A stretch of 32,210 nucleotides of DNA from Sphingorhabdus sp. (GTDB lineage Bacteria; Pseudomonadota; Alphaproteobacteria; Sphingomonadales; Sphingomonadaceae): NCBI GenBank assembly GCA_023262005.1, contig JALREL010000201.1, forward strand, positions 1 to 32,210, given 5' to 3'. Below are positions 3,063 to 24,855 of this stretch, piece by piece. The stretch's first letter is position 1; every line of letters begins with the position of its first letter. The notes below the pieces were generated by a model, which saw only the letters and a program-made list of their open reading frames with translations, did no database searches and was not told the origin of the DNA. The translations under genes and the position numbers were made by a program.

Positions 3063-3551
3063 ATGAAAAAAGTAAAAGGGAGCTTTTGGGCATTATTCTC
3101 AGCCTTTGCGTTGGCTGCAACTCCGGCGCAAGCTTGTTGGACCAGTGCCGAACAGGATGCGGCGCGGATTGCGAACATGAACCAGATGTTGATGGTATCT
3201 GCACTCCGCTGTCGTTTCGGAAATGATAATTTCTTAAGCAGCTACAACAGCTTTGTGCGTCAGAATAACGATGTGCTTGCCGACCAGCACGGCATCATCA
3301 AAGCGCGCTACGCCCGATCTATGGGCGAGAAAGCATCCTTTGCCGAGCTTGATCGCTTCATGATTGCATTGGCCAACTATTATGGCGGCGGGCATGGCGA
3401 CCCCGATTGCGCAAAGCTTGATAAGCTTTCGAGGGAGCTGTCCCGGGGCAAGCAGGATGTAAAACTTCTGGCGCAACTTGCTGATGATGTCGTTGGCGTT
3501 CCGCATCAGGCGAAGCACGCATGTGCAATTACAGTCGCTTCGCGCAAATGA
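3063..3551 (+). CDS. Hypothetical secreted protein
   Basis: 162 residues of unrecognised family. A clear Sec signal peptide (two lysines, a hydrophobic stretch at about 8-20, then ATPAQA) predicts cleavage after A24 and export to the periplasm. The cleavage context is not a lipobox, so the following Cys25 is probably not lipidated. The mature part is mostly helical-looking and has four cysteines (25, 50, 116, 154), an even number that would allow two disulfides. A GGAGG ribosome binding site supports the ATG start. It sits between the divergent peroxiredoxin gene and ahcY, 97 nt before ahcY. No catalytic motif is apparent and I assign no function. Confidence 0.75.
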
Positions 3552-3564
3552 AGTTAGGCATATA

Positions 3565-3590
3565 AAGCAATCTTTATATTCGGATTGCTT
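3565..3590. promoter_or_regulatory. 8-bp inverted repeat upstream of ahcY, candidate operator
   Basis: AAGCAATC (3565-3572) and GATTGCTT (3583-3590) are a perfect inverted repeat with a 10-nt AT-rich spacer. No T tract follows, so it does not look like a terminator for the preceding gene. Its right arm overlaps a possible -35 element (TTGCTTA, 3585-3591) that lies 14 nt before a GCTA-type -10 (3606), the spacing seen in alphaproteobacterial promoters. A repressor or activator site for ahcY is a reasonable inference. Confidence 0.45.
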
Positions 3591-3606
3591 ATCGGCAATA
3601 TCTCCG

Positions 3607-3635
3607 CTAGGGGGCTGGCAATCACAATCCCCTAG
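3607..3635. promoter_or_regulatory. 7-bp inverted repeat directly before the ahcY ribosome binding site
   Basis: CTAGGGG (3607-3613) and CCCCTAG (3629-3635) are perfectly complementary with a 15-nt spacer and end 2 nt before the GGAG ribosome binding site (3638-3641). It could be an operator over the -10 region or, if transcribed, a hairpin that controls translation. It does not match the SAH or SAM/SAH riboswitch consensus as I know them. Confidence 0.45.
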
Positions 3636-3648
3636 TTGGAGTTTTCCT

Positions 3649-5046
3649 GTGTCGACTGATTATGTAGTTGCCGACATCGCGCTCGCCGATTTTGGCCGCG
3701 CTGAAATTGCAATCGCCGAAACCGAAATGCCGGGCCTTATGGCTCTCCGCTCCGAATATGGTGCGTCGCAGCCTCTGAAAGGCGCGCGGATCACGGGTTC
3801 GCTGCACATGACGATCCAGACTGCGGTACTCATCGAAACGCTGGTTGCTCTGGGTGCGGAAGTGCGTTGGGCGACGTGCAATATCTTCTCCACACAAGAT
3901 CATGCTGCCGCAGCCATTGCTGCGCGTGGCATCCCCGTGTTCGCGGTCAAGGGCGAGAGCCTCGCCGAATATTGGGACTATGTCGGCAAGATTTTTGATT
4001 GGGATGACGGCACCGGCCGCACCGCCAATATGATCCTCGACGATGGCGGCGACGCAACAATGTTTGCTCTTTGGGGCGCTCGCATCGAAGCAGGTGACGA
4101 ACTGCCCGAGCCTTCCAATGCCGAAGAAATCGAATTCCAACGCGCGCTCAAGGCCTTTGTAAAAGCAAAGCCGGGATACCTCACCATGTCGGTGGCACAC
4201 ATTAAGGGCGTTTCAGAAGAGACCACCACCGGCGTCCACCGCCTTTACCAGATCGCCAAGGATGGCAAGTTGCCTTTCCCGGCGATCAACGTGAACGATT
4301 CCGTGACCAAGTCGAAGTTCGACAACCTCTATGGTTGCAAGGAATCGCTGGTTGACGCGATCCGCCGCGCCACTGACGTGATGCTAGCCGGCAAGGTTGC
4401 CTGCGTGGCCGGTTTCGGTGACGTCGGCAAGGGTTCGGCCGCCTCGCTGCGTCAGGGTGGCGCCCGCGTGATGGTCACTGAAATTGATCCGATCTGCGCG
4501 CTGCAGGCGGCGATGGAAGGTTATGAAGTCGTCACCATGGAAGAAGCTGTGCAGCGCTGCGATATCTTCGTCACCGCAACCGGCAACGAAGATGTCATCA
4601 CAGCCGAGCATATGAAGGCGATGAAGCCGATGAGCATCGTCTGCAACATTGGCCACTTCGACAGCGAAATCCAGATTTCGGCGCTCGACAATTACAAGTG
4701 GACCGAAGTGAAGCCGGGTACCGACCTTGTCGAGTTCCCCGACGGCAAGCAGATCATCGTGCTGGCCAAGGGTCGCCTGGTGAACCTGGGTTGTGCGACC
4801 GGCCACCCGAGCTTTGTAATGAGCAGCAGCTTCACCAACCAGGTGCTTGCCCAGATCGAGCTTTGGACCAAGAGCAGCGAATATAAGAACGAAGTCTATG
4901 TTCTGCCCAAGCACCTCGATGAAAAGGTCGCAGCGCTGCACCTCGAAAAGCTGGGTGTGAAGCTGACCAAGCTTTCACCAAAGCAGGCAAGCTATATCGG
5001 TGTTTCAACCGAAGGACCGTTCAAGCCTGAACATTATCGTTACTGA
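3649..5046 (+). CDS. ahcY: Adenosylhomocysteinase (S-adenosyl-L-homocysteine hydrolase)
   Basis: A 465-residue NAD-dependent enzyme that splits S-adenosylhomocysteine into homocysteine and adenosine, relieving inhibition of methyltransferases in the methionine/SAM cycle. The start is GTG at 3649 (VSTDYVVAD), with GGAG 7 nt upstream; the frame is open further 5' but that part overlaps the previous gene and is not conserved. Family signatures include the substrate-domain [20 protein letters not shown] near 47-66, [17 protein letters not shown], the NAD-binding GFGDVGKG from G255, and the C-terminal KPEHYRY that closes the cofactor site of the neighbouring subunit. A strong terminator follows 25 nt after the stop, so ahcY is probably transcribed alone from the palindrome-rich upstream region. 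Confidence 0.97.
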
Positions 5047-5070: not shown

Positions 5071-5096
5071 AAGGCCCGTTTGCGCGGGCCTTTTTT
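5071..5096 (+). terminator. Rho-independent terminator after ahcY
   Basis: AAGGCCCG (5071-5078) pairs with CGGGCCTT (5085-5092) around a 6-nt loop, and the T run extends to 5096. This is a canonical strong terminator that separates ahcY from divL. Confidence 0.92.
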
Positions 5097-5159: not shown

Positions 5160-7523
5160 ATGTTGGGCGAAAGCCTGAAAACCGCACTGATGGGTTTGCT
5201 GCTGGCGGCTTGGCTGGTTGCGGCAGCTGTGGCCATTTGGAAAGGCCTTTCCATGCAGCGTGCGGCGCGCGCATCGTTGCGCCAAACGTCTCGCCTAAGC
5301 CGTCTGATAGAAACGGCACCTGCCTTTCCGGCGATTGTTCGGGCGGATGGCAAGCTTGAGGCGTCCGACCGGTTTTTCCGCCTGCTGGGGCTTGATCGGC
5401 CTTTGCCGACGCTCTCCGAACTGGTGGTCGAACTGGCGGTGGAGGAGGTGAAGGACGAGTGGCAGGAGCTTGCCGAACGGGTGAGGGAGACCCAGCGCAC
5501 CGGAAAGGCCCTGACGCAGCGACTGCGTGTTGCCGGTTCAGACAAGCGCTTTATGGCAAAGATTGCGTTGGCCGATTCCAAAATCTACCCCAATGTTGCA
5601 TCAGTCGTCTGGCTGTTCGATCTCACTGAAACAGTTCGGGAACTGGAACGACTGGAGGGTGACGCGACCACGGCACGTAACGCATTCCATGCGCTGGCTG
5701 GATTGATCGAGGCATCGCCGTTGCCGATGTGGCACCGTGGACCCGATTTCCACCTCAGTTTCGTCAACACCGCCTATGTCGAGGCTGTCGACGGTGAAAG
5801 CGGCGAGGACGTTGTGTTCAAGGACATCGAACTCGTCGAACCAATCAACGGGGTGGATGCCAAAGCAGCGGCGGCCAAGGCGCAAGAAATTGGGAAGCCA
5901 GTTGAACGGCTTGTTTCAGCAACGATTGCGAACGAACGCCGCCAGATCAAGGTTTACGATATCCCGATGGGTGATGTCGGTGTTGGCGGAATTGCCATCG
6001 ACATGCAGGAATTGATCAACGCCCGTGCCGATGCCCGCAGGCAGGCCGAGGCGCAACGCAACATGCTCGACAAGATGTCCGCTGCAGTTGCGCAATTCGC
6101 TGCCGACCGGACACTGACTTTCTGGAACCTGCCTTTCCAGCGCCAGTTCGGTATGCGTGAGGAGTGGCTTTCGGAATCGCCAGAGTTCGCCCGCGTGCTC
6201 GAACGAATGCGCGAAAGTGGCAAAATGCCCGATGTTCGCGATTTCCCCGAATGGAGGGCGGAGCGCGAAGGCTGGTTCCATATTGCGGCCCCGGTCGAGG
6301 AAAACTGGTTGCTGCCCGATGGCACCCATTTGCGTCTGGTCGGTCAACCTACTGCGGACAACGGCCTATTGCTGATTTTCGAGGATCGCACCGAACAAGC
6401 CCAACTGGCCAGCGCGCGCGATACATTGCTTCGCGTGCGAACCGCGACATTCAACAATCTGTTCGAAGCGGTTTCGGTGTTTTCGGCCGATAGTAGGCTC
6501 AGCATCTGGAATAGTCGCTTTGAAGAGATCTGGGCGGTCGAAGAGGAAGTGCTGGCGCAGCATCCCCGTTTTGACGAACTGTTGCCACAGCTTGGGCCCC
6601 GCCTGCATAAACCCTCGCACGTATCGGTTTTGCGCGAACTTTTGCAGATGACAATCAGCACGCGTCAGCCACGCAAGAGCCGAATTGCCTTTGCCGATGG
6701 GCGCATATTCCAGCTGTCGACCGTTCCGTTGCCCGACGGCAATGCGATGCTGGCAATGCTGGACGTTACCGATAGCTTGCAGATCGAACAGGCGCTGCGT
6801 GATCGCAATGCGGCACTTTCTGAAGCGGATTCGATCAAGGGCAAGTTCCTGTCGAACATGAGCTACGAGTTCCGCACGCCATTGACTTCGATCAGCGGTT
6901 TTGCCGACCTTTTGCAGCAGGGAATAGGCGGCGAACTGCCTCCTCAGGCCAAGGAATATGTCGAAGCAATTTCGAAATCGGCTGATAGACTGGGGCAGCA
7001 AATCAATGCTGTTCTCGATTTTACCCAAAGCGAGGCCGGGGCTTTGCCGGTTGCTCGCAAACCGCTCGAAATTGCCGACCTGATCAAATCGGTGGAGGCA
7101 ACTGCCAGCGCTGCTGCGCTGAAGGCCGGGGCGTCGCTGGTCATCGACGTCAAGCCTAATGCTGGTTCAATCCAGGGGGATGTGGCAAGGCTGAAGCAGG
7201 CAATGGATGCGATTGTTGATAACGCATTGACCCATGGTGGTAGTGGTCTTCGTATCCTCATCCATGCATCGGGTGATCGTAATGGCGTAACGCTTGTGGT
7301 TTCCGACAATGGCCCGGGAATGGATGTTCAGGCCCAGACCATGGCGCTCGATCCGGTCCTGCGCAGCCAGAAAGCGGCGGGGCAGGGCGGCAATGGCGGG
7401 CTAGGCCTGCCGTTGGCGCGAAAGCTGGTGGAATTGCACGGCGGGCAGTTTGAGCTGGAGTCGCAACCGGGTGCTGGAACCACCGTTGCGCTCAGGCTTC
7501 CGCGTACGGCACCTACGGCATGA
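5160..7523 (+). CDS. divL: DivL-type sensor pseudo-histidine kinase with tyrosine in the H-box
   Basis: A 787-residue membrane signalling protein. One N-terminal membrane helix (about 6-28) is followed by several PAS-like segments, a coiled linker (about 535-555), a dimerisation helix with H-box FLSNMSYEFRTPLTSI, and a HATPase domain with an N-box (DNAL, D687), G1 (DNGPGM, D716) and G2 (GLGLPLARKL). The phospho-acceptor histidine is replaced by Tyr569. That substitution and the architecture define DivL, which in Caulobacter (769 aa, Tyr550) interacts with DivK and CckA to control CtrA and polarity. ATG 5160 is preferred over an in-frame TTG at 5118 because it starts just before the membrane helix; its ribosome binding site is weak. 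The stop overlaps the tsaE start (ATGA). Confidence 0.9.
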   Translation: MLGESLKTALMGLLLAAWLVAAAVAIWKGLSMQRAARASLRQTSRLSRLIETAPAFPAIVRADGKLEASDRFFRLLGLDRPLPTLSELVVELAVEEVKDEWQELAERVRETQRTGKALTQRLRVAGSDKRFMAKIALADSKIYPNVASVVWLFDLTETVRELERLEGDATTARNAFHALAGLIEASPLPMWHRGPDFHLSFVNTAYVEAVDGESGEDVVFKDIELVEPINGVDAKAAAAKAQEIGKPVERLVSATIANERRQIKVYDIPMGDVGVGGIAIDMQELINARADARRQAEAQRNMLDKMSAAVAQFAADRTLTFWNLPFQRQFGMREEWLSESPEFARVLERMRESGKMPDVRDFPEWRAEREGWFHIAAPVEENWLLPDGTHLRLVGQPTADNGLLLIFEDRTEQAQLASARDTLLRVRTATFNNLFEAVSVFSADSRLSIWNSRFEEIWAVEEEVLAQHPRFDELLPQLGPRLHKPSHVSVLRELLQMTISTRQPRKSRIAFADGRIFQLSTVPLPDGNAMLAMLDVTDSLQIEQALRDRNAALSEADSIKGKFLSNMSYEFRTPLTSISGFADLLQQGIGGELPPQAKEYVEAISKSADRLGQQINAVLDFTQSEAGALPVARKPLEIADLIKSVEATASAAALKAGASLVIDVKPNAGSIQGDVARLKQAMDAIVDNALTHGGSGLRILIHASGDRNGVTLVVSDNGPGMDVQAQTMALDPVLRSQKAAGQGGNGGLGLPLARKLVELHGGQFELESQPGAGTTVALRLPRTAPTA

Positions 7524-7942
7524 TCCTGAAAGACGAAGCATCGATGCGTGCCTTTGGTGCGCAGCTTGCTGGGCAATTGCAGGCCGGTGAGCTGGTTACG
7601 CTTAACGGTCCTTTAGGGGCCGGCAAGACCGTGCTCGCAAAGGCGATTATCGCCAGCCTCGGCTTTGAAGGCGATGTTTCCAGCCCTACTTTTGCAATTA
7701 TCCACGAATATGACGAGCCCTGCATGCGCTTGCCCGTTGTCCATGCCGACCTCTATCGGCTAAACGATCCCGAGGAATTGGAAGAACTTGGTTTGTTCGA
7801 CCATGCCGACCGCGTGATGTTGGTCGAATGGCCGAGCAAGGGTGGCGCAGCTTTGCAAAAGCCAGACATTGCGATTGATATCAAACCGCAAGCTGACGGT
7901 TCCCGATGGGTTGAATATGTTGACAAGAGGAAGCGCAGTTGA
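7520..7942 (+). CDS. tsaE: tRNA threonylcarbamoyladenosine biosynthesis ATPase TsaE
   Basis: A 140-residue P-loop ATPase that works with TsaB and TsaD to form the t6A modification at position 37 of ANN-decoding tRNAs. The Walker A motif GPLGAGKT is at 30-37. It also has the family segments VSSPTFAIIHEY, HADLYRL and VEWPSKG. Length is usual for the family. ATG at 7520 overlaps the divL stop by 4 nt and the tsaE stop overlaps the next start by 4 nt, so translation is coupled across the cluster. No partner genes (tsaB, tsaD) are in the window. Confidence 0.95.
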   Translation: MILKDEASMRAFGAQLAGQLQAGELVTLNGPLGAGKTVLAKAIIASLGFEGDVSSPTFAIIHEYDEPCMRLPVVHADLYRLNDPEELEELGLFDHADRVMLVEWPSKGGAALQKPDIAIDIKPQADGSRWVEYVDKRKRS

Positions 7943-8928
7943 GCGAGGTCCGGTTGCCCGAAGGGCTCAATGAATTTCTGGTAGCTGCCGGATGGCCGGA
8001 TGCGCAGGTGGAACCGCTTGCGGGTGATGCTTCCTTTCGGCGTTATTTTCGAATTCGGAAGGCCGACGGTACGACAGCCATGCTGATGGATGCCCCGCCA
8101 CCGCATGAAGACCCCCGTCCGTTCCTGCAGGTTGCGAAATATCTGGTGCGTCACGGTTTCAGGGCACCTGCAATTTATGGCGAAGATCTGGATCGTGGCT
8201 TGGTCTTGATTGAGGATTTCGGAGATGAACGCATGCGTGAGCATCTCGACGCCAAACCGGAGGACGAAGAGGCCATCTATCGCCACGCCATTAATACGCT
8301 GATCGCGCTTGAAAAGGCACCTGTTGCCGATGTGGCGCCTTATGACGAGGCTGCCTATCTGCGCGAAACGGCGCTACTCGCGGAATGGTACATGCCCGCC
8401 ATGGACCTGCATTTCGATCGTGCAGAGTTCGATGCGATTTGGCACCGCGCGCTCGCGCCGCTTTTTGATGCCAAATGGCAGCAGGTGACCGTCTTGCGCG
8501 ATTACCATGCCGAAAACATCATGTTGTTGCCCGACGGCGAGCAAGGTCTAATCGACTTTCAGGATGCTCTGGCAGGCCACCCCGCATATGATCTTGTCTC
8601 ACTGTTGCAAGACGCGCGACGCGATGTATCTCCGCAACTGGAAGCGGCGATGCTTAGGCATTATAAAGAGCACGCCAAGCCTGATGCTGATTTCGACCTG
8701 CATTATGCATTGCTAGGTGCCCAACGGAACACCAAGATCATCGGCATTTTCACCCGGCTTTGGAAGCGCGACGGCAAAGAACGCTATCTCGGTTTCCTTC
8801 CACGTATGTGGGGACTTTTGGAACGCGATCTTGCTCATCCGGGATTGTCTGAAATTCGTGACTGGTTCGATCGCAACATTCCGGCTGCAACACGCGCACA
8901 ATCGCCGCTGGATCGAGTTGCGCAATGA
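7939..8928 (+). CDS. amgK: N-acetylmuramate/N-acetylglucosamine anomeric kinase AmgK
   Basis: A 329-residue kinase of the aminoglycoside phosphotransferase fold. By family and context it phosphorylates MurNAc (and GlcNAc) at the anomeric carbon, the first step of the recycling route that bypasses de novo MurNAc synthesis. An N-terminal nucleotide-binding region (AGDASFRRYFRI) is followed by the catalytic loop RDYHAENIM (D188, N193) and the metal-binding LIDFQDA (D206) with a downstream HPAYDLVSLLQD. The start is TTG at 7939, embedded in the tsaE stop (TTGA). The gene overlaps murU by 4 nt, and this pairing is what argues for AmgK over a generic phosphotransferase. This pathway is known to give intrinsic fosfomycin tolerance in Pseudomonas. 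Confidence 0.92.
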   Translation: MSEVRLPEGLNEFLVAAGWPDAQVEPLAGDASFRRYFRIRKADGTTAMLMDAPPPHEDPRPFLQVAKYLVRHGFRAPAIYGEDLDRGLVLIEDFGDERMREHLDAKPEDEEAIYRHAINTLIALEKAPVADVAPYDEAAYLRETALLAEWYMPAMDLHFDRAEFDAIWHRALAPLFDAKWQQVTVLRDYHAENIMLLPDGEQGLIDFQDALAGHPAYDLVSLLQDARRDVSPQLEAAMLRHYKEHAKPDADFDLHYALLGAQRNTKIIGIFTRLWKRDGKERYLGFLPRMWGLLERDLAHPGLSEIRDWFDRNIPAATRAQSPLDRVAQ

Positions 8929-9650
8929 ACGCAAAGATCGATACCGCCATGATCATGGCCGCCGGTTTGGGAACGCGCATGCGTCCCTTGACCGAGCACA
9001 AGCCCAAGCCGTTGGTCGAAGTGGCTGGCAAGACATTGATCGATCATGTCCTAGATAAAGCGCGAGCTGCTGGGATCAGCAACGTGGTCGTCAACGTACA
9101 CTACCTTCCTGAGCAGGTAGAGGCGCATATGGAGCGTCATGCATCCGATCTTGCCGTCAAGATTTCGGATGAGCGAGAACTGCTGATGGAAACCGGTGGG
9201 GGATTGGTCCAGGCCCAGCATTTGATCGATGCCGAACCCTTTTACTGCCTGAACAGCGATGCCATCTGGACCGACGAAGGCGCACAGGATGGTCTTTCGC
9301 GCCTTGCCGATGCCTGGGACGGGGAGCGGATGGATGGTTTGTTGCTGCTCGTTCCAAAGGAAAGGGCATTCCAGCACCCAGGAAAGGGCGACTTTTTCCT
9401 CGACGATGAGCAACGCCTGGTGCGGCGGGGAGAGCGTGATAGCGCGCCCTATGTCTATACCGGTAACCAGTTGATCAGCCACCGCCTGCTTCGCGAAGCA
9501 CCGCAAGGGCCATTTTCGACTAACAAATTTTGGGATCGCGCGATTTCCGAAGGTCGCCTATTCGGGCTGGTACATATTGGCGATTGGTACGACATAGGAT
9601 CGCCCCAAGCGATTGCGCCCACCGAAGCTGCTTTGGCCGTGCATGGTTGA
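8925..9650 (+). CDS. murU: N-acetylmuramate alpha-1-phosphate uridylyltransferase MurU
   Basis: A 241-residue sugar-1-phosphate nucleotidyltransferase. The signature at residues 14-29 (GLGTRMRPLTEHKPKP) binds UTP. Further family residues are the NSDAIW segment that coordinates metal and the C-terminal GDWYDIGSP. It converts MurNAc-1-phosphate, the product of AmgK, to UDP-MurNAc, which re-enters peptidoglycan synthesis. It has no acyltransferase domain, unlike GlmU. It overlaps amgK by 4 nt upstream and addB by 8 nt downstream. A GlcNAc-1-P or mannose-1-P specificity is possible from sequence alone, but the neighbour makes MurU the best call. Confidence 0.92.
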   Translation: MNAKIDTAMIMAAGLGTRMRPLTEHKPKPLVEVAGKTLIDHVLDKARAAGISNVVVNVHYLPEQVEAHMERHASDLAVKISDERELLMETGGGLVQAQHLIDAEPFYCLNSDAIWTDEGAQDGLSRLADAWDGERMDGLLLLVPKERAFQHPGKGDFFLDDEQRLVRRGERDSAPYVYTGNQLISHRLLREAPQGPFSTNKFWDRAISEGRLFGLVHIGDWYDIGSPQAIAPTEAALAVHG

Positions 9651-12612
9651 GGGCATTCGCGCCAATGTACAGACCGTTCCCATCGGCGTGGATCTGTCAG
9701 GCGCGCTGTCAGAATGGTTGATAGGTAAATATCGGGATGATCGTCTGGCGCTTGCCGATGTCACCCTCTTCCTGCCCAACAATCGTGCCGTAACCGCGAT
9801 GACCGCGGCCTTTGTACGGTCTGCTGACCAAGGGTTGGTGTTACCACGAATGGTGGCGATCGGCGATTTGGCGCTTGATGAAAAGCTTGGTCCACTGCTC
9901 GATCCATTGTCGCAGGACGAGCATGGTCCGTTACCGGCGGCTCCCGATCTCGTCCGCCTGTTGCAGCTGGTCAGCCTGATACGCCAGCACCGCCGCGATG
10001 CGACAGCCGCCGAAGCGCTCCATCTCGCCAAACAGTTGGCGAAGACGCTGGACGAACTGGAGATCGAGGAAAAATCGATCCGCAATATCGAACTCGATCA
10101 TGATTATGCCGACCTGGCTTCGCATTGGTCCACGGCATATGACAGCCTGAAGCTGTTGTGCGGCTCGTACGAGCAATGGCTTTCGGAACAACAATTGCAG
10201 GCGCCGGCGGCTCGCAGGAACGCCTTGCTGTATCGCCTGGCCGATCGCTTGAAAGCCTATCCGCCGACTGCCCCCGTTATTGCTGCCGGGATCACGACCG
10301 CTGCGCCGGCCATTGCGCGGTTGCTGAGCCGTATTGCGACTTTGCCAAATGGAATGGTGCTTTTGCCGCATGTCGACCTCGCCATGCCGGGCGCAGATTG
10401 GGAGGCATTGGGGCTTTCAGATGGAAACGGAACGGATGAAGCGCCAAAAGATGTTTCCCGCGCTCAGGAAACGCACCCGCAATATCATCTGAAGCTGTTG
10501 CTGCACCGCATGGGCATCGCTCGTGACGAGTTGCAATTATTTGTTTCAAATGACCGGGCATTGCGGCTTGGCCAGGCGGCGCAGGACATATTCTGCATTC
10601 CGGACAAAACCATGGAATGGCAGAGCCTTCCGCAAAAACGGCGCACGCTTGATCATGTTCGAGTGGTCGAAGCGGAGGACAGTGCCGAAGAAGCACGTGC
10701 CATATCCGTCCTGATACGCGGCGCGCTCGAAGTTCCGGGCAAACGGATTGCCCTTGTTACGCCGGATCGCGAGATTGCACTCCGCGTGGCCGCGCAATTG
10801 CGCCGTTGGAACATTGAGGCCGATGACAGCGCCGGTTTGCCGCTCAGCGAGGAACCTGCTGGCGTACTTTTCCTGGCACTGTCGCGCATGTTGTCGAGCG
10901 AGCTTGCCCCGGTGCCTCTCCTTTCCGCGATGAAGCATCCGCTCGTCCATAGTGGGGATGCACGTTTGGAGTGGCTTTCAAATGTCCGGGCGCTCGATTT
11001 GAAGCTGCGCGGGCCGCAAATGCGGATTGGGGCAGGCGCAATAGCACAAACGCTGGCCGACGCGGAAAAGGTCGAACCTAAACTCCGCGATTGGTGGCAA
11101 TCCATTGAAGCTGAGATCGAGCCGCATGCGAAAGCCGCGAAACTCAACCTGCAGGCACATATCGAAGCAGTGACCGCGCTGGCCGATATTTGGACAAAAG
11201 GCGCAATCTGGAAAGGTGCTGCCGGACGCAGATTGGCCGAATTCGTAGAGGAACTTTCGGGTAACAACCTCGGCGCGCTTTCGGATACTGATCATGCAGC
11301 CTATCCGGATCTGCTATCATCGATGCTTGCTGATCTAAGCATCAGGCCTGCTTATGGTCGCCACCCGCGCGTGGCTATTTACGGCTTGCTCGAAGCTAGG
11401 CTGCAATCTGCTGATCTGGTGATCTGTGCTGGGCTCAACGAAGGGAGTTGGCCTCAACTGCCCCAGCCAGATCCATGGCTTGCGCCGCACCTGAGGCGGC
11501 GGCTTCAAATGCCTGGGCTCGATCGCAATATCGGATTGTCTGCGCATGATCTTGCGAGTGCATTGGGGGCCAAAGAGGTTGTCCTTACACGCTCCAAACG
11601 CGATCGTTCCGGGCCGACCATTGCCTCGCGTTTCCTGCTTCGCCTGCAGGCACTTCTGGGTGACCGGTTGCAGGTCGACGATGATGCTCGCCGTTTGGCG
11701 GTTACGCTCGACAGCGCCGTAAAAACAGCAAATGCCTATCCACGCCCTGCGCCGGTGCCCGATATCGAGCAACGCAAAGTGGCGATTTCGATTACGCAGA
11801 TGGATATGCTCAAGGCCGATCCTTACGCCTTTTACGCCCGCAATATCCTCAAACTGAATGCCCTGAAGTCGGTGGATGCCGAGCCCGACCCGGCATGGAA
11901 AGGTACATTGGTCCACGACATCATCGAAAAATGGACCGATGGTGGAGACCGTAATCCAGACAGCCTCGTCCGCTTCGCAGAGCATGCTTTTAACGACCAG
12001 TCGGTTACGCCAGCGCTTCGATTGCTATGGCAGCCACGCATCATGGCCGGGCTGCGCTGGATCGCATCAGAAATTGCGTCGAACGAAAGCCAGGGCCGAT
12101 CGATTCTTGCCTATGAAGCCGAAGCCAAAGGAGAGATCGATGGCATTGTCATTCGCGGACGGATAGATCGCATAGACCGTAGTGAAGATGGCAGTTTGGT
12201 GATCGTTGACTACAAGACCGGTGCACCTCCTTCCAAATCCAAGGTCAAAGCCGGCTATGCCTTGCAATTGGGGCTGGCGGGCTTGCTGGTCGAAACTGGC
12301 GGCGTGGCTGATGCCGAAGGAGAGGTTCGCGGATTTGAATATTGGTCACTTGCCAAGAAGAACGACCGCTTCGGTTATTGCGAGACGCCTTTCGCCAAAA
12401 GTCCCAAGCCCGGCGAACTCAATGCATCGACCTTTGTCAGTTTTGCCGACGCAAAAGCTTCTGAGGCTATTGCAGAGTTGATTCTGGGTAAAAAGCCATT
12501 CACCGCGAAATTGAAACCCGATTATGCCATCTACAAAGATTACGACCAGCTGATGAGGCTGGATGAATGGATCGGTCGCGCCAGTTGGAATGGAGCAAGC
12601 GATGGCGCTTGA
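9643..12612 (+). CDS. addB: Double-strand break repair protein AddB
   Basis: A 989-residue partner of AddA in the helicase-nuclease that resects DNA ends and loads RecA. The N-terminal part is helicase-like but has no Walker A, as is usual in alphaproteobacterial AddB. The C-terminal RecB-type nuclease domain shows GTLVHDIIE, GRIDRID (D842) and IVDYKTG (D856, K858). Only four cysteines are present and they are scattered, so the iron-sulfur staple of Bacillus AddB appears absent. ATG 9643 is chosen over an earlier in-frame codon because it keeps the murU overlap short (8 nt). The 3' end overlaps addA by 11 nt. Confidence 0.95.
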   Translation: MVEGIRANVQTVPIGVDLSGALSEWLIGKYRDDRLALADVTLFLPNNRAVTAMTAAFVRSADQGLVLPRMVAIGDLALDEKLGPLLDPLSQDEHGPLPAAPDLVRLLQLVSLIRQHRRDATAAEALHLAKQLAKTLDELEIEEKSIRNIELDHDYADLASHWSTAYDSLKLLCGSYEQWLSEQQLQAPAARRNALLYRLADRLKAYPPTAPVIAAGITTAAPAIARLLSRIATLPNGMVLLPHVDLAMPGADWEALGLSDGNGTDEAPKDVSRAQETHPQYHLKLLLHRMGIARDELQLFVSNDRALRLGQAAQDIFCIPDKTMEWQSLPQKRRTLDHVRVVEAEDSAEEARAISVLIRGALEVPGKRIALVTPDREIALRVAAQLRRWNIEADDSAGLPLSEEPAGVLFLALSRMLSSELAPVPLLSAMKHPLVHSGDARLEWLSNVRALDLKLRGPQMRIGAGAIAQTLADAEKVEPKLRDWWQSIEAEIEPHAKAAKLNLQAHIEAVTALADIWTKGAIWKGAAGRRLAEFVEELSGNNLGALSDTDHAAYPDLLSSMLADLSIRPAYGRHPRVAIYGLLEARLQSADLVICAGLNEGSWPQLPQPDPWLAPHLRRRLQMPGLDRNIGLSAHDLASALGAKEVVLTRSKRDRSGPTIASRFLLRLQALLGDRLQVDDDARRLAVTLDSAVKTANAYPRPAPVPDIEQRKVAISITQMDMLKADPYAFYARNILKLNALKSVDAEPDPAWKGTLVHDIIEKWTDGGDRNPDSLVRFAEHAFNDQSVTPALRLLWQPRIMAGLRWIASEIASNESQGRSILAYEAEAKGEIDGIVIRGRIDRIDRSEDGSLVIVDYKTGAPPSKSKVKAGYALQLGLAGLLVETGGVADAEGEVRGFEYWSLAKKNDRFGYCETPFAKSPKPGELNASTFVSFADAKASEAIAELILGKKPFTAKLKPDYAIYKDYDQLMRLDEWIGRASWNGASDGA

Positions 12613-23574: not shown

Positions 23575-24855
23575 ATGAATTCGGCTACGACATCGCCATC
23601 AATGAAGATTTCGCCCGCCCGTGACGCCCAATTATGGCTTTCTGCGTTCGAAGCGACGGCTTCTCGTGGTGCTGCTTTGTTTCTTGTCGGCATTCGTGAC
23701 CTCAAACAGGTCAACGACCTGCACGGGCGGGATGTGGGCAATGCCGTGATTGCAGAAATCGGCCAGAAAATCGCGCAATATGCTTCGGCAACGCAAGGTG
23801 CAATCCTTGCGGCGAGACTTCCCGGAAGGGAGTTTCTTTTGATAACGGAGCGGATGAATGCGCCTGATGCCGAACAATTGGCGCGCAAACTGGTCGCAAA
23901 ACTGGGCGAACCCGTGCTGCAGGGGAATGGCGATCTCCACATAAGTCCGCGTATCGGCATAGCCTTGGCAACTGCCGGTCAGACCGGTGCATCGCTGTTA
24001 TCTGCTGCATCTGCCGCGCTGGCATCGGCCTATTCGCATAAAGGACGGAAATATCGCTTTGCCGAAAGCCATGAGGCCATCGACAAAGTAAAACACACCC
24101 GTCTCGACAAGGAATTGCGCAATGCCTTGGCCAACAGCGAGATTGGCATTTTTTTTCAGCCACAGTTCGAGGTTGCGACAGGCAGGCTGATGGGTGCTGA
24201 GGCGCTGGCGCGGTGGCATCACCCCGAACTGGGCGAACTAGGGGCGGATGAGCTGTTTTCTGCGGCTGATCGTTGCGACCTGCGTGAAGAACTCTCCTAC
24301 GCCATCCAGCGCCAAGCGGTATCACATGCGCTGGACTGGCCGAACATGGTCCAGCCGCTGCGTCTTTCGATTAACCTGGGTGCAGAGGAACTGGCTGACG
24401 ATCATGCGGAGCGTCTCCTCACCATTCTCGATGAATCCGGTTTCCCATGCGAGCGGTTGACGGTCGAACTGACTGAAGAGAGCATCGTCCGCGATTTCGA
24501 TCTTGCCATGGCGCAGCTACAGATGTTGCGGTCGAAAAATGTAAGTGTCGCGATTGATGACTTTGGTACCGGCTATTCCAGCCTAGCATATTTAAAGAGC
24601 CTGCCTGTCGATTATCTCAAGATCGATAAGGGCATGATCGCTGAAATCAGCGGCAATCCGCGCGATTTGATCGTGTTGCGCGCAATCATCGCGCTTGGGA
24701 AGGCGCTCGATCTTAAAATTATCGCTGAAGGTGTTGAAAAAAATAGCGAATTGGAGATTCTGCGCGCCGAAGGTTGTGACTTTTTCCAAGGCTTCCTGCA
24801 GTGCAAGCCGCTTTCAGCATCCGAATTTGCCAAGTTCGTCGCTAAACAGGCGTAG
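23575..24855 (+). CDS. Cytosolic c-di-GMP phosphodiesterase with degenerate GGDEF and intact EAL domain
   Basis: 426 residues, no membrane segment. Residues 20-165 are a GGDEF-type fold, but the catalytic GGDEF is replaced by PGREF (83-87), so cyclase activity is unlikely; the domain may bind GTP or be structural. Residues 175-425 are a full EAL domain: EAL at 209-211, N267, ELTEE (298-302), DDFGTGYSSL (328-337), K349, EGVE (385-388) and QGF (405-407). All metal and catalytic residues are visible, so hydrolysis of c-di-GMP to pGpG is expected. The start at 23575 has no close ribosome binding site (AGGAAAGG lies too far upstream); a later ATG at 23602 is possible. It ends exactly where the convergent mfd ends. 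Confidence 0.92.
   Translation: MNSATTSPSMKISPARDAQLWLSAFEATASRGAALFLVGIRDLKQVNDLHGRDVGNAVIAEIGQKIAQYASATQGAILAARLPGREFLLITERMNAPDAEQLARKLVAKLGEPVLQGNGDLHISPRIGIALATAGQTGASLLSAASAALASAYSHKGRKYRFAESHEAIDKVKHTRLDKELRNALANSEIGIFFQPQFEVATGRLMGAEALARWHHPELGELGADELFSAADRCDLREELSYAIQRQAVSHALDWPNMVQPLRLSINLGAEELADDHAERLLTILDESGFPCERLTVELTEESIVRDFDLAMAQLQMLRSKNVSVAIDDFGTGYSSLAYLKSLPVDYLKIDKGMIAEISGNPRDLIVLRAIIALGKALDLKIIAEGVEKNSELEILRAEGCDFFQGFLQCKPLSASEFAKFVAKQA

Follow-up and report, generated by a model that had tools for sequence, protein, structure and literature searches.

What does a sensor histidine kinase do when a tyrosine stands where the phospho-acceptor histidine should be, and is such a protein in a sphingomonad a true DivL? 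This question is raised by positions 5160-7523 (+) of the window, by which the whole analyzed stretch of 32,210 nucleotides from Sphingorhabdus sp. (contig JALREL010000201.1) is meant. Sequence, acceptor-masked phylogeny, gene order and predicted fold identify the encoded protein as a sphingomonad ortholog of DivL. The finding holds, yet it adds an ordinary member to an already known family rather than a new kind of protein. The protein is probably a pseudokinase that reads DivK and acts on CckA, with ATP binding under weak constraint.

The open reading frame (ORF) encodes 787 residues without internal stops. A second in-frame start (TTG 5118) exists beside ATG 5160 and the start codon is not settled. 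The following features were assigned.

5160..7523 (+): divL, with N-terminal helix, PAS array, DHp domain with Tyr569 and CA (ATPase-like) domain (translation, Pfam, PDB match, family alignment, tree)
5160..5315 (+): N-terminal helix predicted at residues 2-52, including a hydrophobic stretch (AlphaFold2 helix; hydrophobicity by eye)
5292..5531 (+): weak PAS match, residues 45-124 (Pfam PF00989, E 3.9e-5; AlphaFold2 confidence below 50 across residues 53-151)
5727..6002 (+): PAS-like fold, residues 190-281 (AlphaFold2 strand order, by eye)
6084..6386 (+): PAS domain, residues 309-409 (Pfam PF13188 at residues 300-341; AlphaFold2 strand order)
6453..6788 (+): PAS_7 domain, residues 432-543 (Pfam PF12860)
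6837..7040 (+): HisKA/DHp domain, residues 560-627 (Pfam PF00512, E 8.4e-21)
6864..6866 (+): codon of Tyr569 at the phospho-acceptor position (PDB-match and family alignments)
7176..7508 (+): HATPase_c (CA) domain, residues 673-783, with N688, D716-G720 and G747-L750 intact and a non-canonical F box (Pfam, alignment)

The H box is KGKFLSNMSYEFRTPLTSISGF, where MSYEFRTPL aligns Tyr569 with the phospho-acceptor, so that the protein lacks the histidine of an active HisKA domain. The N box IVDNALTH (N688), the G1 box DNGPG (716-720) and the G2 box GLGL (747-750) are all present. An earlier sequence-only reading had described the tyrosine and the three intact boxes, and translation and alignments confirm both; the F box, which it left unmentioned, is non-canonical (MALDPVLRS versus HIFDRFVG in Caulobacter DivL). 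The PAS-rich sensor region that it proposed is borne out by three clear PAS folds in the AlphaFold2 model (190-281, 309-409 and 437-535; strand order by eye), a further PAS match ahead of them being weak and residues 53-151 being modeled with low confidence. This model was built with 33 sequences from 80 Caulobacter-type loci and reached a mean predicted local distance difference test score of 77. A hydrophobic N-terminal helix followed by several PAS domains ahead of DHp and CA corresponds to the layout of DivL, and we infer that the helix serves as a membrane anchor.

The closest PDB relative of the protein is Caulobacter DivL (4q20, E 5.6e-41; runner-up 9.5e-33), with tyrosine aligned to tyrosine. 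When Foldseek matches were ranked by E-value, other PAS-kinases came out on top and DivL 4q20 occupied ranks 10 and 14 (target TM 0.68 and 0.76; 35% identity). Among the 25 of 75 and 25 of 37 NCBIfam families listed for the window DivL and for the DivK of the same genome, respectively, none scored above its cut-off. Full-length comparison with DivL of Caulobacter sp. Root343 gave 33% identity over 607 residues, which means that homology extends past the kinase region. For phylogeny, kinase regions were chosen by hand, 32 from DivLs (22 of the family and order, 10 of Caulobacteraceae) and 25 from other kinases; 20 of the latter were the next-best matches of the family DivL search and the remainder were kinases from the window genome. 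With all rows included, the DivLs stood together on one side of a branch with a support of 89/92. After masking of the acceptor and removal of the two longest branches (55 rows), the 32 DivLs were again on one side with 100/97, the bootstrap being almost, not fully, settled. The identification as DivL made from the sequence alone is thereby upheld by the PDB match, tree, gene order and fold. Neither a conserved histidine elsewhere in the dimerisation helix, when aligned with Caulobacter DivL and true kinases, nor a placement outside the DivL clade emerged, the two outcomes named beforehand as contradicting it.

The alternative that an unrelated histidine kinase underwent an independent exchange of histidine for tyrosine deserves almost no credence. 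Replaced acceptors do occur in about 1% of sequenced histidine kinases, according to PMC5361649, and a second kinase of the window genome (on C48) also seems to lack the histidine (by eye). However, independent exchange is at odds with the acceptor-masked tree, the gene order and the homology through the PAS region. The acceptor is histidine in all 20 next-best non-DivL kinases, read with a regular expression open at that position, and tyrosine in 53/53 DivLs of the family with an aligned DHp; thus Tyr569 is neither a chance event nor a sequencing slip.

These family counts come from a survey of the window's family with one genome per genus (59 genomes), in which BLAST, with no motif imposed, selected the DivL ORFs, at thresholds of E 1e-50 for DivL and E 1e-20 for DivK. 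DivL was found in 54 genomes, and its DHp could be aligned in all but one of these (G119). Besides the tyrosine, the arginine three residues and the threonine seven residues downstream occur in 53/53, and the threonine four residues downstream of the tyrosine is replaced by valine in 7. ORF calls on both strands at loci L009-L038 yielded an ORF in 29 of 30 cases, each with the tyrosine, and none at L034 under the regular expression. Apparent in-frame stops inside DivL matches on plus-strand rows were discarded, as each was the gene's own stop at the alignment end.

In Caulobacter, DivL binds DivK~P through a docking module together with a PAS domain (PMC4211667, PMC5361649), and mutations of R553, T557, Y562 and H579 break this binding (PMC4211667). 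The corresponding residues of the window DivL are R572, T576, F581 and Y600. Among the 53 family DivLs these positions hold arginine in 53, threonine in 53, phenylalanine in 51 with tyrosine in 2, and tyrosine in 53. A comparison set was taken from the 80 Caulobacter-type loci, of which 12 without a complete ORF were dropped, leaving 68 DivLs from Caulobacteraceae and their close relatives. The scan pattern contained the tyrosine and the arginine three residues after it, so their presence in this set is no evidence; the threonine, which was outside the pattern, is present in 68/68, and tyrosine occupies the H579 position in 16/68. A glycine acceptor in one Caulobacteraceae row was a regular-expression artefact and was rejected.

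The nucleotide pocket behaves differently from the acceptor helix. Mean pairwise identity of DivLs and of PhoR-type kinases from the same genomes is nearly equal in the DHp (0.62 vs 0.63) and lower for DivL in the CA domain (0.38 vs 0.52). The N-box asparagine is lost in 5/53 family DivLs (histidine in G098, leucine in G130, valine in G102, glycine in G105, isoleucine in G101), whereas the PhoR-type controls keep it in 58/58, along with the acceptor histidine in 58/58. It is also lost in 9/68 Caulobacteraceae-type DivLs and is a histidine in DivL of Sphingomonas parapaucimobilis. Scored by one rule for both groups, at least one of the N, G1 and G2 boxes is lost in 8/53 DivLs versus 2/58 PhoR-type kinases (p 0.046), one of these two PhoR rows having a shortened frame. 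A higher count of 19/53 degenerate DivLs from a strict G2 expression was rejected, as it wrongly scored GLGI as lost. The apparent ATP-binding residues to which the sequence-only reading pointed are therefore retained in the window DivL itself, but relatives lose them repeatedly. DivK is retained in four of the five genomes in which the N-box asparagine is gone (G098, G101, G102 and G105). The pocket decays in genera in which the tyrosine, the docking face and DivK are all kept, and reading of DivK therefore probably does not require nucleotide binding; it may still play a supporting role, as most family DivLs keep the pocket. The earlier question of whether the ATPase domain still acts is answered to this extent only.

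A class-wide sample was also read, in which 46/96 genomes matched; from the 44 matches outside the order the best-scoring 28 were taken, and the sample is biased accordingly. Among these best 28 of 44, the acceptor is tyrosine in 25/28, the exceptions being histidine, serine and valine (L366, L377, L385), and arginine follows in 28/28. The N-box asparagine is kept in 27/28, and the pocket seems better kept there than in the family and the Caulobacteraceae-type group. In 8/28 of these proteins glutamine replaces the glutamate beside the acceptor. The DivL match L379 (G141:C26) holds three in-frame TAA codons, reflecting a broken gene, an assembly error, an alignment past the stop or another cause.

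In 1999, Caulobacter DivL was reportedly proposed to act as a bacterial tyrosine kinase. That the window protein is an active kinase, with Tyr569 or a different protein as its substrate, is highly improbable. Such activity would fit the intact N, G1 and G2 boxes of the window DivL, the retention of all three boxes in 45/53 family DivLs and the N-box asparagine kept in nearly all of the best 28 of 44 proteins outside the order. It is contradicted by the recurrent loss of this asparagine in the family, the Caulobacteraceae-type group and S. parapaucimobilis, by the non-canonical F box, and by Caulobacter DivL, for which PMC4211667 and PMC5361649 report no autokinase activity and weak nucleotide binding.

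In the window genome, which is 82% complete in 234 contigs, DivK is encoded at C4:4559-4933 (best PDB match 1m5t DivK, 7.3e-36, then PleD, 8.6e-25). In the family, DivK was detected in 49/59 genomes: both genes occur in 49, DivL without DivK in 5 (G094, G099, G119, G129 and G130), neither in 5 and DivK without DivL in none. A re-scan of the ten negative genomes at a looser threshold gave best values of 2.4e-17 to 2.0e-13, compared with 2.8e-30 or lower in the positives. The association of both genes has a Fisher p of 5e-5, inflated by kinship. Among the genomes without DivK, G119 carries a DivL ORF of 720 residues (L249) that has lost the DHp segment with the H box in frame and retains a degenerate CA remnant, and DivL of G130 has lost the N and G2 boxes. 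On a PhoR-based proxy tree, G119 groups in a small clade with G091, in which both DivL and DivK are missing, and with G019, G086 and G109, in which both are present.

Several observations weigh against a DivL that is tied to DivK and has a weakly constrained pocket. DivLs with a DHp occur without DivK in G094, G099 (67% complete), G129 and G130; therefore, retention of the DHp is not strictly dependent on DivK. The ChpT family PF10090 was found in 56/59 genomes, with a weak match in G081 (4.8e-11) and an unconvincing one in G094 (2.2e-4), and is missing in G097, G107 and G115. Three of the five DivL-less genomes lack ChpT, G081 is weak, and only G091 of the five keeps a good ChpT. Because most DivL-less genomes lack a good ChpT, much of the joint loss of DivL and DivK may represent loss of the whole pathway. 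The proxy tree leaves two to three independent contrasts between DivL and DivK, and the sign test is not significant (median p 0.5). At two of the four docking positions the residue is not that of Caulobacter DivL; the phenylalanine and tyrosine found there are also usual in other kinases of the order, so that the docking face is conserved yet not diagnostic of DivK. Finally, the 27/28 retained asparagines among the best 28 of 44 outside the order indicate that weak constraint on the pocket is not universal among DivLs.

Some of these points would fit a DivL that mainly reads an input other than DivK, for instance a different single-domain receiver or a ligand of the PAS domains, DivK being secondary. 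This is rather unlikely, although DivL with a DHp persists without DivK in G094, G129, G130 and the incomplete G099, and PMC7200025 describes DivL of Hyphomonas neptunium as essential and DivK as dispensable. On the other side stand the invariant docking face and the presence of DivK in the window genome and in most of the family. A DivK-reading pseudokinase is still the probable identity of the window DivL.

The remaining partners for this role were sought in the window genome, as the sequence-only reading had proposed. ChpT is present (PF10090 over cut-off; among 14 controls this family matches Caulobacter only), as is CpdR (above the NCBIfam cut-off). A CtrA fragment interrupted by a contig end matches the CtrA model best (333 bits, cut-off 350), and a CckA fragment with GQLAGGVAHDFNN and an HDFNN box (by eye) lies at the end of C207. 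DivK, CckA, ChpT and CtrA are therefore encoded in the same genome, cckA and ctrA as contig-end fragments. No clear PleC or DivJ was recognised by eye among the 17 other HisKA matches of this 82%-complete genome, for which no PleC/DivJ profile was run. Thus the search for partners succeeded apart from pleC, and the term polarity circuit, as used in the sequence-only reading, was overstated, as no clear pleC or divJ was recognised and localisation is unreadable from sequence.

At C21:11943-13520 (= L086:2944-4518, +) the genome encodes a second hybrid kinase that is CckA-like and has an HDFNN box. It may correspond to the CcsA branch that a Sphingomonas melonis paper on CcsA/CckA-ChpT-CtrA mentions in its title. 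On C33, chpT is followed by che-like genes (L069:1834-6984), comprising an 813-residue ORF and CheY-like and CheB-like receivers (names by eye). A receiver gene adjoining chpT there was rejected as divK, as it is part of a che cluster. The arrangement suggests that the CtrA relay could be linked with chemotaxis.

The features that speak for a DivK reader are the missing phosphoryl acceptor, the preserved docking face of the DHp helices, the PAS array and the partners in the genome. By analogy with Caulobacter and Sinorhizobium, DivL free of DivK~P would support the kinase activity of CckA via its PAS array. DivK~P would dock on the DHp helix around Tyr569 and withdraw this support, upon which CckA would turn into a phosphatase and CtrA~P would drop. 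The CA domain would not be needed for catalysis and may contribute structurally to the switch.

Two further kinase-like proteins of the window genome are unusual and look complementary to each other. The protein at C82:1454-3121 (= L083:1457-2962, -) has an intact HELRTPL box and has lost the N and G1 boxes. The same loss was read by eye in this protein and nine relatives (L253-L262; 10/10), and Pfam detects only HisKA in it (E 1e-5). It is possibly an ATP-independent phosphatase or a phosphotransfer protein. Matches of this type occur in 47/59 family genomes, namely in 44/49 with DivK and 3/10 without (uncorrected p 2e-4); on the proxy tree, with four starred contrasts and seven in all, the association is not significant. 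The kinase at C48:12313-13728 (= L088:1326-2726, +) has the H box FATAVRQPL with threonine at the acceptor position and N, G1 and G2 boxes present (by eye), its HisKA match being below the Pfam cut-off. It is conceivable, though improbable, that the DivK switch is run by split and individually dead kinases. DivL would read DivK, and C48 would supply ATP to the histidine of C82, or C82 alone would stand in for DivJ and PleC, either dephosphorylating DivK~P independently of ATP or serving as a phosphotransfer protein. Any link of C82 or C48 to DivK is speculation.

The genes around divL lie in the same direction.

3478..5046 (+): ahcY, upstream of divL, start not settled (Pfam/NCBIfam, locus comparison)
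7520..7942 (+): tsaE, overlapping the divL stop by four bases (ATGA) (Pfam)
7939..8928 (+): amgK-like sugar kinase (best NCBIfam match, under cut-off)
8925..9650 (+): murU-like nucleotidyltransferase (best NCBIfam match, under cut-off)
9613..12612 (+): addB (TIGR02786 above cut-off)

An addA-sized ORF follows addB. The order ahcY-divL-tsaE-(amgK)-murU-addA is common to the window, S. parapaucimobilis and Sinorhizobium meliloti. In S. parapaucimobilis (NZ_CP155749.1), whose DivL is 46% identical to the window DivL over 778 residues, the genes are AMP nucleosidase, peroxiredoxin, ahcY, divL, tsaE, phosphotransferase, nucleotidyltransferase, PD-(D/E)XK nuclease and addA, with two to three small genes interspersed. 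The order in S. meliloti CP090106.1 is ahcY, divL, tsaE, nucleotidyltransferase, addA; this record is labeled pSymB, yet it spans 3.7 Mb with addA, ahcY and divL, and the label may belong to the chromosome. When 1.5 kb flanks were examined at 29 loci of the order, divL was accompanied by tsaE in 28/29, by amgK in 29/29 and by ahcY in 20/29. Among plasmid records, AhcY of the window is most similar to AhcY of S. parapaucimobilis (84.6% over 98%) and Rhizorhabdus wittichii (90.2% over 51%), and the other 58 of the 83 records that were listed reach at most 73.8%; matches of this kind are the basis for assigning the window to a sphingomonad. At the 80 Caulobacter-type loci, several of them short, ahcY was near divL in 3/80 and tsaE in 1/80. 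Between ahcY and divL, a GC-rich hairpin followed by six T is located at 5073-5096 (by eye). This looks like an ahcY terminator, and divL may therefore have its own promoter. Farther downstream, a GGDEF-EAL protein, a cyclic di-GMP gene, is encoded at 23575-24855 (+).

DivL exemplifies the reuse of a kinase domain for sensing. The analysis yields a testable statement: the tyrosine and the docking face are fixed, while several genera that still have DivK show decay of the nucleotide pocket. If this is true, ATP binding by DivL is dispensable for reading DivK, and each genus whose pocket is broken amounts to a natural experiment. That DivL occurs in sphingomonads is itself already in print, and a claim to the first sphingomonad DivL was dropped on the basis of PMC7987155, which finds DivL in all of 13 species but Ca. 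P. ubique, Sphingomonadales included, and PMC8116508, a survey including Sphingomonadales genomes in which divL stands out from the polarity module by being widely conserved. In the same way, the suggestion that a sphingomonad DivL would newly extend the circuit beyond stalked bacteria is anticipated by these two papers, by PMC2877005, which reports the CckA-ChpT-CtrA relay in Sphingomonadales, and by PMC11500502, in which DivL was studied genetically in Sinorhizobium. DivL comes up once in PMC8921679, only as a WelA-like kinase. In the literature searched, subscription journals being mostly outside the search, no experiment on DivL of a sphingomonad was found.

Compared with known systems, the window DivL shares with Caulobacter DivL (4q20) the tyrosine acceptor, the docking arginine and threonine, the N-terminal helix, the PAS array and the CA fold, and its genome encodes DivK, CckA, ChpT, CtrA and CpdR like that of Caulobacter. 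It differs by phenylalanine for Y562, tyrosine for H579 and the F box. DivL of S. meliloti (CP090106.1), presumably the published S. meliloti DivL, has a similar H box (SYELR) and the same gene order ahcY-divL-tsaE-nucleotidyltransferase-addA, but is 29% identical to the window DivL over 730 residues. DivJ, PleC and CbrA act on DivK in S. meliloti (PMC11500502), whereas no clear counterpart was recognised in the window genome. Kinase domains of DivL were previously stated to go with DivK (PMC2877005), and in Rhodobacterales the loss of DivK accompanies a degenerate and then truncated DivL (PMC9430884). Decay of the kinase region beside loss of DivK may recur in the window's family, as in G119 and G130; in contrast to the short or degenerate DivLs of Rhodobacterales, the window DivL retains its full length and is accompanied by DivK.

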